DNA from: a virus
Strand: one strand, 5' to 3'
DNA length: 29,342 nucleotides
IMG/VR virus record: IMGVR_UViG_3300031621_000021
Location: 1-29,342 of that record
Made by a program: the position numbers and the translations under genes. Shown here piece by piece: positions 10,817 to 16,642 of this stretch (the first letter of the stretch is position 1; each line of letters starts with the position of its first letter). Under the pieces are notes generated by a model. It was not told the DNA's origin, made no database searches, and worked only from the letters and a program-made list of their open reading frames with translations.

Positions 10817-10839
10817 AAAAAAAAGCCCCCGAAGGGGCT
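10817..10839 (-). terminator. Strong intrinsic terminator with UUCG loop
   Basis: On the minus strand AGCCCC-TTCG-GGGGCT is followed by eight Ts. The loop is the very stable C(UUCG)G type. The first stem base lies within the TAG stop codon of the last gene of the leftward operon. In the plus direction there is no T tract, so it acts one way. Confidence 0.88.
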
Positions 10840-11020
10840 AGACGCCTAGGCTTAACTTCAAGAGCTTGAGGTTAGACCGGCTCATTTTACGTGCATGCCT
10901 TGGGTCGCCATCACGCCGCCAGTTCGTGACGGTGGTCGGTGACACTTCAAGCATTTCTGCAATCGCTTTACTGGTTAATTTATGATCTTTTATCAGAGCG
11001 ATCAGTTCAGGGTTTTTCAC
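10838..11020 (-). CDS. Small helix-turn-helix protein
   Basis: This 60-residue protein carries IALIKDHKLTSKAIAEMLEVSPTTVTNWRRDGDPRHARKM, an HTH of the XRE/YdaS-like kind, and ends in basic helices. The GTG start shares its G with the stop of the previous gene (TAGTG), and GGAG lies 7 nt upstream; the in-frame ATG at 11044 lacks a site. It is the last gene before the terminator and may be a regulator of this operon or a host-directed DNA binder. Confidence 0.75.
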   Translation of the reverse strand: MKNPELIALIKDHKLTSKAIAEMLEVSPTTVTNWRRDGDPRHARKMSRSNLKLLKLSLGV

Positions 11021-11241
11021 TACTCTTCTCCAATTAGAATGCAACTAAGCAATGCCCATGCCGCGTCAATCTCTGACTGGCTGTACGGAGCATCGCCAAT
11101 GTTGCGCGTGTACTTGGTGATAACGGCATCCACAATATCAAAGGCTGTCTCGTCATTCATTTTATAGGTAATGCCATCAAGGTTTACTGCCATGTTATCC
11201 GGCAAGTAGATATCACCACCGCGCTCGAAAGTAAAAGCCAT
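11020..11241 (-). CDS. Hypothetical protein, 73 residues
   Basis: I do not recognise it. It has a beta-rich start (FTFERGGDIYLPDNMAVNLDGITYKM) and a helical end (EIDAAWALLSCILIG). The ATG overlaps the previous stop (TGATG) and is preceded by AAGGAGG, part of the repeated GGAGGTGGCGTGATG junction. Confidence 0.7.
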   Translation of the reverse strand: MAFTFERGGDIYLPDNMAVNLDGITYKMNDETAFDIVDAVITKYTRNIGDAPYSQSEIDAAWALLSCILIGEE

Positions 11242-12096: not shown

Positions 12097-12161
12097 ATCC
12101 TCCTCAGGATTTAATTAAGTGTTCAAAAATAAACACTAAGAAACTACCCTTAGGTAGCTTC
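12097..12161 (-). promoter_or_regulatory. Intergenic RNA leader: two hairpins plus SD hairpin
   Basis: On the minus-strand RNA, reading from the upstream stop codon, there is a 9-bp hairpin GAAGCUACC/GGUAGUUUC (12161-12140, one G-U pair). Next comes a 6-bp hairpin AGTGTT/AACACT (12118-12137). Last is ATCCT-GAGG-AGGAT (12110-12097), which holds the Shine-Dalgarno sequence of the gene starting at 12090. The leaders at 12840-12882 and 13238-13302 have the same plan with compensated stem changes. Confidence 0.65.
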
Positions 12162-12839: not shown

Positions 12840-12882
12840 TGATGTCAGAATTAACATCAAGAAACCACCCTTGGGTGGCTTC
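12840..12882 (-). promoter_or_regulatory. Intergenic RNA leader: two hairpins
   Basis: GAAGCCACC/GGUGGUUUC (9 bp, loop CAAG) and TGATGT/ACATCA (6 bp) repeat the plan of the leader at 12097-12161 with different but still paired bases. The SD hairpin at the end has decayed (ACGGACGGGAT). The element starts at the stop codon of the gene at 12890. Confidence 0.6.
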
Positions 12883-13237: not shown

Positions 13238-13302
13238 ATCCTCCTCAGGATCATATTCAGTGTCGAAGTTAACACTAGTAAGCTACCCCGAAAGATAGCT
13301 TA
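13238..13302 (-). promoter_or_regulatory. Intergenic RNA leader: two hairpins plus SD hairpin
   Basis: TAAGCTA/TAGCTTA (13302-13279), AGTGT/ACACT (13259-13276) and ATCCT-GAGG-AGGAT (13251-13238) follow the same plan as 12097-12161. It begins about 8 nt after the stop of the small membrane-protein gene. Confidence 0.6.
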
Positions 13303-13514: not shown

Positions 13515-13758
13515 ACCTAAACATCTCCCTTATTTGATACATGGCCGTGCGGTACTTATTGCGTTTGAGAACCCCATCTTGCACCACATAAAAAGCGTGT
13601 GGTTTGTTGCGCTCAAACTTTTCAAAAGATGTGAACACAACCATCGTGCTACCATCCCTCTCTATGTCAGAAAAGTCTCCAAGCTTCTGCACACGCTGAA
13701 ATGCGGCATGGGCAAAGGGGTAGGGGTGCTCATCTGCACTGGCTATAAAATAACTCAT
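13513..13758 (-). CDS. Hypothetical protein, 81 residues
   Basis: It contains a beta-rich centre (GSTMVVFTSFEKFERNKPHAFYVVQDGVLKRN) and a basic C-terminal helix. It has no recognised family. The ATG overlaps the previous stop (ATGA), and AGGTGG lies 4 nt before it. It is the only gene in this stretch coupled directly to its neighbour rather than having a leader element. Confidence 0.7.
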   Translation of the reverse strand: MSYFIASADEHPYPFAHAAFQRVQKLGDFSDIERDGSTMVVFTSFEKFERNKPHAFYVVQDGVLKRNKYRTAMYQIREMFR

Positions 13759-13934
13759 AAAACCACCTGAGCATTAACACCGGTGAAGGTGTAGCCAAGT
13801 CGCTTCATCAGTTCTCGCGTTTCAGAAGTGAGGGTTTTTGTTCCGGCAATTAGTGCAAAAGTCTCACCAACAATACAGGTCGGGTAAACAACGTCAGTGC
13901 CGTAATTTTTTGTAACTGTCACTTGTATGTTCAT
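13755..13934 (-). CDS. Small hypothetical protein behind hammerhead ribozyme 1
   Basis: This is a 59-residue protein, MNIQVTVTKNYGTDVVYPTC, then VGETFALIAGTKTLTSETRELMKRLGYTF. A beta-strand opening, a GT-LT turn and a helix are visible. It has no recognised family. The ATG at 13934 lies 4 nt after the SD hairpin at 13938-13951; the longer frame to 14006 would run through the ribozyme and is not credible. Confidence 0.75.
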   Translation of the reverse strand: MNIQVTVTKNYGTDVVYPTCIVGETFALIAGTKTLTSETRELMKRLGYTFTGVNAQVVL

Positions 13935-13937
13935 AAA

Positions 13938-13951
13938 GACCTCCTCAGGTC
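13938..13951 (-). promoter_or_regulatory. SD hairpin of the gene at 13934
   Basis: GACCT-GAGG-AGGTC on the RNA strand is a 5-bp stem with a GAGG loop. The AGGAGG ribosome site lies half in the loop and half in the 3' strand. The two outer pairs differ from other copies yet remain paired. Confidence 0.7.
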
Positions 13952-13958
13952 GTAGTTT

Positions 13959-14014
13959 TCCAAGACACCCAGAAGGGTGTTTCGACTGGTAACTAACCAG
14001 TCTCATCAGTTGGA
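13959..14014 (-). ncRNA. Type I hammerhead ribozyme 1
   Basis: On the minus-strand RNA, in order: stem I UCCAA, core CUGAUGA, stem II GACUGGU-uaguu-ACCAGUC, the GAAA box, stem III ACACCC-uucu-GGGUGU, cleavage triplet GUC, and stem I UUGGA. All invariant core bases (C3 U4 G5 A6 G8 A9, G12 A13 A14, A15.1-U16.1) are present. The predicted cut is between 13964 and 13963, leaving a 29-nt leader before the ATG at 13934. Stem I starts directly after the stop codon of the upstream gene. Activity itself is inferred. Confidence 0.92.
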
Positions 14015-14251
14015 TTAATAGCCCTGCTTACTTGCCCACTTTTCTATTTTGGCTAAAGTCTCGTCACCTACTACACGAAGCGATCCATCGTCAAGTTCAA
14101 ACCCACCCATTGCCTCGACACAGGCTAGACTTCCTCCGGCCAAGCATTCTCCAGACTTTAGGTTGAGAGTTACCCAACACTCTGTCTGGCCTGTATCGCG
14201 GTCAAGAAGATCCACTTCAGCGTGGACGTTTCCTATTTTTAACTTACTCAT
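14015..14251 (-). CDS. Hypothetical protein between two ribozymes, 78 residues
   Basis: A beta-rich protein (KIGNVHAEVDLLDRDTGQTECWVTLNLKSGECLAGGSLACVEAMGGFELDDGSL) with a short C-terminal helix. It has no recognised family. It is framed by hammerhead ribozyme 2 upstream and ribozyme 1 directly after its stop, so self-cleavage would release it as its own short message. Confidence 0.72.
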   Translation of the reverse strand: MSKLKIGNVHAEVDLLDRDTGQTECWVTLNLKSGECLAGGSLACVEAMGGFELDDGSLRVVGDETLAKIEKWASKQGY

Positions 14252-14257
14252 ATCAAT

Positions 14258-14269
14258 GCCTCCTCAGGC
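14258..14269 (-). promoter_or_regulatory. SD hairpin of the gene at 14251
   Basis: GCCT-GAGG-AGGC on the RNA strand, 6 nt before the ATG. The stem is 4 bp and the loop GAGG. Confidence 0.65.
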
Positions 14270-14274
14270 GTTAG

Positions 14275-14336
14275 TTTTCCAAGACGCACCGGAGTGCGTT
14301 TCGACCAGTAACTAACTGGTCTCATCAGTTGGAAAA
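14275..14336 (-). ncRNA. Type I hammerhead ribozyme 2
   Basis: RNA order: stem I UUUUCCAA, core CUGAUGA, stem II GACCAGU-uaguu-ACUGGUC, GAAA, stem III ACGCAC-uccg-GUGCGU, GUC, stem I UUGGAAAA (8 bp). It is homologous to ribozyme 1 but stems II and III carry several paired substitutions. The predicted cut is between 14283 and 14282, 31 nt before the ATG at 14251. The stop codon of ardC lies 33 bp upstream. Confidence 0.94.
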
Positions 14337-14368
14337 ATTTGAATCGGGGGAAGAAATAATCCCCACCC

Positions 14369-15247
14369 CTATGCCGCAACCTCTAGAGGGATAGACTCTT
14401 GTTTAACATCCATCCAGTCCATAACCTTCTGCGCTTCGCTAGCCGCTTTAAAGATATAGTCATTGTCTCCACTTAAGGCTTGAAGCCAAGAGTTGAGGTA
14501 CTGGGCATGGTCTTCGCGTGGAGTGCTAGAGACATCCAAGTGATTGCACAGAAAAGCGGCTGACAACTCAGCAACTAACTCCTCGAATGCGTATCCCTTT
14601 TTGTTCTTTAAATCCAAGCGATCAAGCCGTGATGAATGACCGGTACAGTGCGCTGACTCATGCAGTAACGTGCTGTAGTAACACTCAGTCGCAGTAGATG
14701 TTTTAGTTGCGATGAATTGATCACGTTGCGGCATATGGATGAAGTCATTGGCCGGCTGATAATAAGCACCGCCCTCCGTGCTATGACGTATGTCAAATCC
14801 AAGGTTAGTGACGTACTGGTCAACTGCTTCCAGTCGCTCTGTGAGATCAACTCTCTCACCTAGTTCAGGCTCAGACCATGGCTCCCCAGTCTCAGCATGT
14901 AGCACCTGACTCGCAGGGAACACTGAAGCGCCCCTGAATCCGAACATCTTGCTGTCACCGGTTTTCTTATCCTTGCCCACCATTGGCACTGATATGCCAA
15001 CGGACTTGCTACCCTTTTGGACTTGGTAGCCAAGATCAGCCCATTGCTTGTAGGTCGCAACAGTCCGGTAGCCTAGCAATCCAAGCCATAAGGCATTAAG
15101 TCCGCGATAGTGTTTACCGCTCGATGCATTGGCAGGGCGACCTCCAAGAGTTTTGAATGGCATGGTGAAGTCAGAGCCAGTCGCTTGGGCGTCTTTGATC
15201 ATGTCGATGATCTGGGCAGTAATAGTTTCTTTGATATCTTTCTTCAT
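14369..15247 (-). CDS. ardC: ArdC-type antirestriction protein
   Basis: This 292-residue protein has the two-part ArdC layout. The N-terminal ssDNA-binding domain (about 5-130) has the form TMPFKTLGGRPANASSGKHYRGLNALWL, then YKQWADLGYQVQKGSKSVGI. The C-terminal zincin-like domain has HESAH at 196-200 and a candidate third ligand in FEELVAELSAAFL (221-233). ArdC proteins protect incoming DNA from host restriction and would act early after entry. It is preceded by ribozyme 3 and an SD hairpin. It ends in LEVAA, like several small neighbours that end in EVA. Confidence 0.9.
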   Translation of the reverse strand: MKKDIKETITAQIIDMIKDAQATGSDFTMPFKTLGGRPANASSGKHYRGLNALWLGLLGYRTVATYKQWADLGYQVQKGSKSVGISVPMVGKDKKTGDSKMFGFRGASVFPASQVLHAETGEPWSEPELGERVDLTERLEAVDQYVTNLGFDIRHSTEGGAYYQPANDFIHMPQRDQFIATKTSTATECYYSTLLHESAHCTGHSSRLDRLDLKNKKGYAFEELVAELSAAFLCNHLDVSSTPREDHAQYLNSWLQALSGDNDYIFKAASEAQKVMDWMDVKQESIPLEVAA

Positions 15248-15253
15248 GTTGTG

Positions 15254-15265
15254 GCCTCCTCAGGC
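15254..15265 (-). promoter_or_regulatory. SD hairpin of ardC
   Basis: GCCT-GAGG-AGGC on the RNA strand, 6 nt before the ardC ATG, identical in form to the copies at 14258, 15597 and 15991. Confidence 0.65.
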
Positions 15266-15273
15266 TTTGATTT

Positions 15274-15333
15274 TCTGTGACACTGGCGAACCAGTGTTTC
15301 GGCTGAGAATCACTCAGCTACTCTTCAGACAGA
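15274..15333 (-). ncRNA. Type I hammerhead ribozyme 3 (core overlaps a stop codon)
   Basis: RNA order: stem I UCUGU, core CUGAAGA, stem II closed by G-C with a UA bulge then GCUGAG-ugauu-CUCAGC, GAAA, stem III ACACUGG-uucg-CCAGUGU, GUC, stem I ACAGA. Only the variable position U7 differs in the core. The predicted cut is between 15279 and 15278, 31 nt before the ardC ATG. The core bases U4-G5-A6 are the TGA stop codon of the upstream gene (15327-15325). The bulge may lower activity. Confidence 0.86.
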
Positions 15334-15596: not shown

Positions 15597-15649
15597 GCCT
15601 CCTCAGGCTTTAAATAAAAACAATGGAAACCACTCTCTCGAATGGCTTC
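15597..15649 (-). promoter_or_regulatory. Intergenic RNA leader: terminator-like hairpin plus SD hairpin
   Basis: On the RNA strand GAAGCCA pairs with UGGUUUC (15649-15626, one G-U pair). A U-rich run with A and G interruptions follows, then GCCT-GAGG-AGGC (15608-15597). The hairpin plus U tract looks like a leaky terminator. The sibling at 15991-16047 has the same plan with G-C in place of A-U and G-U. Confidence 0.6.
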
Positions 15650-15990: not shown

Positions 15991-16047
15991 GCCTCCTCAG
16001 GCTGGTTAAATAAAAACAAAAGAAGCCGCTAAACATCTAACGGCTTC
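15991..16047 (-). promoter_or_regulatory. Intergenic RNA leader: terminator-like hairpin plus SD hairpin
   Basis: GAAGCCG/CGGCUUC (7 bp, 12-nt loop, 16047-16022) is followed on the RNA by UUUUGUUUUUAUUU, a terminator-like pattern, and then by GCCT-GAGG-AGGC (16002-15991). The genes beyond it still need expression, so it probably attenuates rather than stops transcription. Confidence 0.62.
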
Positions 16048-16303: not shown

Positions 16304-16606
16304 ACATCACCTCCTCAGGCTTTAAATTGATTTCGTTATGACCTACAGAAGCAGGGCATAAGCAAATCAACTCATCAGGCTGTACTCGCTTGCGCTTTCC
16401 GTGGGTAGGTTGCCCACCTGATAGGTTGTTTCGTTTCCTTACTGGGCTTGCTACTCGCCGAAGCTTTCACTATCCAGAACCTAAGACCTTAAACCCGCTT
16501 AGGGAGGCACCTTGAATTCCTTTGCAAGGTGAAGAGTCATTCCGGAGACTCTCTAGCCGGTACTGTATGTCTATACAGTGGTGTAAATTCTTGCTCAACG
16601 AGCAGT
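16304..16606 (-). promoter_or_regulatory. Long structured 5' leader of the accessory operon (no gene)
   Basis: About 300 nt separate the likely transcription start from the first ATG. RNA-strand hairpins include ACTGTAT-agac-ATACAGT, AGAGTC/GACTCT, CACCTTG/CAAGGTG, GTGGG/CCCAC inside ATCAGG/CCTGAT, and TTGATTT/AAATCAA. The leader ends in GCCT-GAGG-AGGT over the ribosome site (16320-16309). No convincing protein frame is present. A put-like antitermination RNA, a riboswitch or an unknown structured RNA are possible. I match it to no known class. Confidence 0.6.
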
Positions 16607-16612
16607 TAGGCG

Positions 16613-16642
16613 AGTATAAGCTTAGTGCGAAATGCTTGTCAA
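16613..16642 (-). promoter_or_regulatory. Promoter of the leftward accessory operon
   Basis: On the minus strand a perfect TTGACA (16642-16637), an 18-nt spacer and TATACT (16618-16613). It is the strongest-looking promoter in the window and overlaps the rightward -35 box. Confidence 0.7.

Follow-up and report, generated by a model that had tools for sequence, protein, structure and literature searches.

A virus record of 29,342 bases (the window) carries three type I hammerhead motifs in the gaps of a phage operon, and these would probably cut the operon message into short, end-protected gene mRNAs that are independent of one another. The reading that such hammerheads would divide a polycistronic message in front of individual genes, including the antirestriction gene ardC, is well supported because the motifs covary, form same-strand arrays in related phages and lie at a fixed distance between cut and start codon.

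The window holds an integrase, RecE-like and Sak-like recombination genes, a primase/helicase and the terminase, portal and major head protein genes. Together, these integration, recombination and head/packaging functions indicate that it derives from a temperate tailed phage. The operon had no DNA relative among isolate phages, nor did the one ribozyme used as a query find a convincing match there, and the terminase is at most 39% identical among the isolate phages listed. The accessory operon runs leftward (minus strand) and comprises about sixteen genes. A ribozyme stands ahead of only three of these, the consecutive ardC, 78-aa and 59-aa genes, each of which is preceded by one hammerhead. 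The main features of the operon, from its head to its end, are as follows.

16613-16642, minus strand: promoter-like site TTGACA-18-TATACT at the operon head, the top one in the region with 11 of 12 matches
16022-16047, minus strand: terminator-like hairpin ahead of the 107-aa gene, in a gap without a hammerhead
15626-15649, minus strand: terminator-like hairpin ahead of the 88-aa gene, in a gap without a hammerhead
14369-15247, minus strand: ArdC-like antirestriction protein, 292 aa (Pfam PF08401 and PF18818; phrog_7245)
14015-14251, minus strand: 78-aa protein between hammerheads B and C
13755-13934, minus strand: 59-aa protein after hammerhead C, overlapping the next gene (81 aa)
12861-12882, minus strand: terminator-like hairpin in an operon gap without a hammerhead
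12140-12161, minus strand: terminator-like hairpin in an operon gap without a hammerhead
10824-10839, minus strand: terminator-like hairpin with a T-rich tail at the operon end, called strong

The ArdC-like protein combines an ArdcN domain with a zincin-like metallopeptidase domain bearing a HESAH motif, and the 78-aa protein is without a family match in Pfam and PHROG-type family searches. The total number of promoter-like sites in the region is not above that in shuffles, and the site at 16642-16613 is the best single one. The hairpins of the ribozyme-less gaps recur in relatives ahead of other genes. The last operon gene (10838-11044, minus strand) appears by eye to encode a small Cro/CI-like helix-turn-helix protein (LTSKAIAEMLEVSPTTVTNW), and the strong terminator-like hairpin follows it.

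Three hammerhead motifs and their pseudoknots

On the minus strand, all three motifs described in the initial annotation were found at the positions it gave, in the full hammerhead order of stem I, CUGANGA, stem II, GAAA, stem III, UC and stem I. Its cut sites are likewise correct as predicted positions, as are the distances of 31 (A), 31 (B) and 29 nt (C) between cut and start codon.

15274-15333, minus strand: type I hammerhead A, before ardC; predicted cut 15279/15278; model score 62.8 bits
15268-15272, minus strand: pseudoknot 3' half of hammerhead A, AAUCA; its partner is the stem II loop UGAUU at 15308-15312
14275-14336, minus strand: type I hammerhead B, before the 78-aa gene; predicted cut 14283/14282; model score 82.7 bits; Rfam RF00163 32.8 bits
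14271-14276, minus strand: pseudoknot 3' half of hammerhead B, AACUAA; partner UUAGUU in the stem II loop
13959-14014, minus strand: type I hammerhead C, before the 59-aa gene; predicted cut 13964/13963; model score 84.1 bits; Rfam RF00163 22.6 bits
13953-13957, minus strand: pseudoknot 3' half of hammerhead C, AACUA; partner UAGUU in the stem II loop

The CUGANGA and GAAA core and a UH ahead of the cut site are present in every copy, and stem II of hammerhead A carries a UA bulge. All three stems had been said to differ between copies; this holds for copy A against the others but not for B against C, which share the inner 5 bp of stem I. In each copy the stem II loop is predicted to pair, over 5-6 bp, with the strand just past stem I, and both sides change together. 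This pseudoknot, on which the initial annotation was silent, is present in A, B and C.

The Rfam search that had been proposed as a check was run, and it returned hammerhead B (14277-14334, 32.8 bits, E 1.3e-4) and, weakly, hammerhead C (13958-14015, 22.6 bits, E 0.3), but not A, which is absent at E values up to 1; the curated RF00163 cut-off is 34 bits, which no window copy reaches. The motifs share with RF00163 the core, the three stems, the open stem I and the UH cut site, and differ from it in the stem II bulge of copy A and in a loop-to-tail pseudoknot that lies outside the stretch matched by the Rfam model. A covariance model was read alongside; it was built from 34 hammerheads, the three of the window included, with the pseudoknot left out. 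Run with filters off, it gave exactly three matches in the window (84.1, 82.7 and 62.8 bits), the next scoring 7.6 bits. With a descriptor that demands the core and three stems, 100 dinucleotide shuffles of the window gave no match. No further hammerheads were found in the window, where other CUGANGA...GAAA matches are without stems, and a scan of it for type II and type III hammerheads found none. RAGATH-1 (RF03152) matches copy C weakly, at 31.3 bits and far below its cut-off of 56.3, and this identity was rejected; mir-1017, ceN22 and sR32, the remaining weak Rfam matches of the window, are below cut-off and were taken as chance. Judged by their sequence, the window motifs are genuine type I hammerheads with a predicted loop-to-tail pseudoknot.

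Covariation and arrays in related phages

Relatives were gathered from metagenomic phage records with an ArdC protein search and two ribozyme patterns. The covariance model gave 95 matches across 45 loci from relatives; the sources of some of these loci overlap. At least one hammerhead was found in 22 of the 22 records searched whole, a count that is no frequency, as these records were mostly picked for holding such a motif. Wherever a record has several hammerheads, all are on one strand and inside one operon, and arrays reach six (G004) or seven members (G006, G009 and G010), on one strand and within about 5 kb. Intact cores are seen in relatives, and a copy in L079 exceeds the Rfam cut-off (36.7 vs 34 bits). 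The strict pattern read backwards had no match in 20 records. Loci that bear ArdC outside the group (L014-L020) had no model match, which favours specificity.

The covariation of the hammerhead stems, which had been claimed from the window copies, is borne out over the 34 aligned hammerheads. Pseudoknot included, 94.6% of the paired cells are standard pairs, changes on both sides are seen in 16 of 23 pairs, and the covariation score is 0.453, compared with 0.175 in shuffled and at most 0.102 in slid alignments. Stems I, II and III are paired at 98.2, 89.5 and 97.5%, respectively, with stem I open-ended; the pseudoknot helix is 94.7% paired and has compensatory changes in three of its five pairs. 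As stems and pseudoknot stay paired while their sequence changes, the structure is under selection. The position of the ribozyme relative to the gene is also conserved: across the window and relatives, the distance from cut to start is 28-33 nt in 30 of 35 ribozymes, with a median of 31.

Several variants were observed beside these arrays. A type III hammerhead stands directly before the first operon gene in L008/L082 (L008 4886-4939), L010 (3936-3989) and L061 (458-511). A different phage fragment of 4.7 kb, L070, has five hammerhead-like motifs on one strand, in which types I and III are mixed (821-874, 1211-1262, 1980-2042, 2437-2506 and 2744-2798). Long hammerhead copies, of 105-134 nt compared with the usual 70, occur at L080 8565-8669, L081 10058-10162, L079 7290-7394, L010 7320-7450 and L063 744-877, and those of the group L079-L081 owe their size to a lengthened stem III whose loop is T-rich. 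In bacterial genomes five loci matched the ribozyme-plus-loop pattern, and of these only L076 is a possible hammerhead, of type III.

A Shine-Dalgarno hairpin and a structured leader

The sequence CCTGAGGAGG at the ribosome-binding site is common to eight genes of the window operon. It takes the form of a mini-hairpin, N-CCUGAGGAGG-N' (that is, N-CCU-GAGG-AGG-N'), which encloses the Shine-Dalgarno sequence, whether or not a ribozyme is nearby.

16309-16320, minus strand: Shine-Dalgarno hairpin ahead of the first gene, closed by a G-U pair
15991-16002, minus strand: Shine-Dalgarno hairpin before the 107-aa gene, no hammerhead
15597-15608, minus strand: Shine-Dalgarno hairpin before the 88-aa gene, no hammerhead
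15254-15265, minus strand: Shine-Dalgarno hairpin G-CCUGAGGAGG-C, close behind cut A and ahead of ardC
14258-14269, minus strand: Shine-Dalgarno hairpin G-CCUGAGGAGG-C before the 78-aa gene
13939-13950, minus strand: Shine-Dalgarno hairpin A-CCUGAGGAGG-U, with a further G-C pair, ahead of the 59-aa gene
13239-13250, minus strand: Shine-Dalgarno hairpin before the 113-aa gene, no hammerhead
12098-12109, minus strand: Shine-Dalgarno hairpin before the 71-aa gene, no hammerhead

In the window, as in those related records where it occurs, the motif is confined to one strand and one cluster. Watson-Crick pairing closes the hairpin at 94% of 120 sites, compared with 29% expected, and all four pair types are used; when similar sites were removed (84 left) the figure was 92%, the maximum of 10,000 permutations being 48%. 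It is formed at 39 of 39 ribozyme-linked sites and at 91% of the 80 sites without a ribozyme. Folding of the window copies predicts the same Shine-Dalgarno hairpin in intact and cut RNA. The idea that cutting unmasks the Shine-Dalgarno site is thus unsupported, since no change in access is predicted, and any benefit of cutting must therefore come from the RNA ends or from the unlinking of genes. A limited literature search, which makes for a weak negative, found no description of such a hairpin. That it covaries, with or without a ribozyme, hints at shared translational control, and we know of no earlier description of such control through a hairpin of this kind.

Between the promoter-like site and the first gene lies a long leader.

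16321-16612, minus strand: long structured leader from the promoter-like site to the first gene, conserved in relatives, with covarying helices in its 3' domain

The leader holds repeated GAAAGC-loop-GCGAGUA modules and had no Rfam match. It is found in the same place in L079, L080, L081, L059, L004, L006, L012 and L071, and is roughly 200-400 nt long in relatives. Because terminator-like hairpins follow between the genes, it may be a read-through (antitermination) element. A wider proposal, which is possible and which we make tentatively, is that of a ribozyme-punctuated regulon. Up to seven hammerheads would release single-gene mRNAs, nearly all with the same Shine-Dalgarno hairpin, which would serve as the shared site of one RNA-binding protein (or other trans factor) acting as a translational switch for the entire operon, and the structured leader would let polymerase read through the intergenic terminators.

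Probable processing of the operon message

From the motifs, their covariation, the arrays in relatives and the position of the cut, we infer that cutting takes place in the cell and brings a benefit. Each ribozyme would fold as polymerase passes and would cut the nascent transcript after GUC. The upstream message would end in a cyclic phosphate, its 3' end closed off by stems II and III, and the message of the next gene would begin with a 5'-hydroxyl and a leader of 29-31 nt containing the Shine-Dalgarno hairpin. The outcome would be mRNAs whose stability and translation are no longer interdependent, and no host enzyme would be needed. In the early mRNA of bacteriophage T7, RNase III cuts a multi-gene transcript between genes to give stable mRNAs with a 3' hairpin. 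There the cut is made by a host protein, whereas here the RNA would cut itself, leaving the cyclic phosphate and 5'-hydroxyl ends.

The strong promoter-like site at the operon head and the terminator-like hairpin at its end support a single long transcript cut by ribozymes. The initial annotation had proposed that the operon is processed gene by gene; this fits the three single genes that are each preceded by a hammerhead, but these are only three of about sixteen genes and several other gaps hold terminator-like hairpins. As several gaps are without a ribozyme, cutting is no general rule in the operon. Amid neighbouring RNA the mean pair probability, from folding without the pseudoknot, is 0.72 for A, 0.75 for C and 0.95 for B, which makes the predicted folds of A and C less firm.

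Translation control and recombination linkers are live rivals as accounts of the benefit, not of what the motifs are. In the first, which we regard as unlikely, the ribozymes would cut but serve mainly for regulation, with cutting under the control of upstream translation: a terminating ribosome would cover stem I and the core and so delay the cut. The upstream stop codon indeed lies at or inside the ribozyme, ending a median of 1 nt before it and overlapping it in 15 of 35 cases, and in copy A the UGA stop of the upstream gene (15325-15327) forms part of the CUGA of the catalytic core. Such abutting is expected anyway in compact phage genomes, however, and in 10 of the 35 the stop ends at least 12 nt upstream of the ribozyme, where there is little room for coupling.

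The second rival, an improbable one in our judgement, is that spacers of ribozyme and Shine-Dalgarno sequence are kept mainly as recombination linkers for gene swaps, with RNA cutting incidental. The same 60-nt hammerhead A is found before different genes, with an identical copy in L004/L066 and occurrences ahead of other genes in L068 and L071/L073, and the ardC of L003, at 98% protein identity, is preceded by a different hammerhead; it follows that spacers have been exchanged between phages. Linkers, however, need only sequence identity, yet the stems and pseudoknot keep pairing as the sequence changes, and terminator-like spacers are shared likewise without ribozymes. That the motifs are chance hairpins or inactive remnants is scarcely credible: no window copy is at the Rfam cut-off and the third is unlisted at E up to 1, but none arose in 100 shuffled windows, covariation is strong, pseudoknot included, and cores are intact in relatives.

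Processing of the message into gene mRNAs, the reading that we prefer, has a precedent. The initial annotation knew of no earlier serial set that processes a phage operon, a claim refuted by Perreault et al. 2011 (PMC3088659), who described clustered prophage hammerheads that flank single genes and proposed processing into single-gene mRNAs. Their tandem sets cleave in vitro, a triple around ardA in Agrobacterium tumefaciens cleaves both in vitro and in E. coli, and pseudoknots were reported in about 40% (PMC3088659). The cleavage of this comparable ardA triple supports the processing reading here. Several hammerheads on one strand that flank single phage genes, the mark of such clusters, are found in the window and in its relatives. 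As in the 2011 prophage clusters (PMC3088659), the hammerheads flank single accessory genes, one of them for antirestriction, and a pseudoknot joins the stem I and stem II regions. Unlike in those clusters, the antirestriction gene is ardC rather than ardA, related phages have arrays of six or seven with the cut mostly 28-33 nt before the start, a paired Shine-Dalgarno hairpin is present at 39 of 39 ribozyme-linked motif sites, and the phages are metagenomic. What looks new is thus that the arrays are longer, that their geometry is fixed, that they occur with ardC, that terminators and type III ribozymes are mixed in, and that many operon genes have the Shine-Dalgarno hairpin.

In a 2023 paper (PMC10085705) the biological reason for the association of hammerheads with phage genes, and with each other, was considered still unknown. 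The clusters described here are longer and more regular than the triple reported in 2011, and one long message is probably cut into gene messages. With six- or seven-member arrays, a fixed distance from cut to start and copies that differ from one another, the processing hypothesis is directly testable on one cloned fragment.
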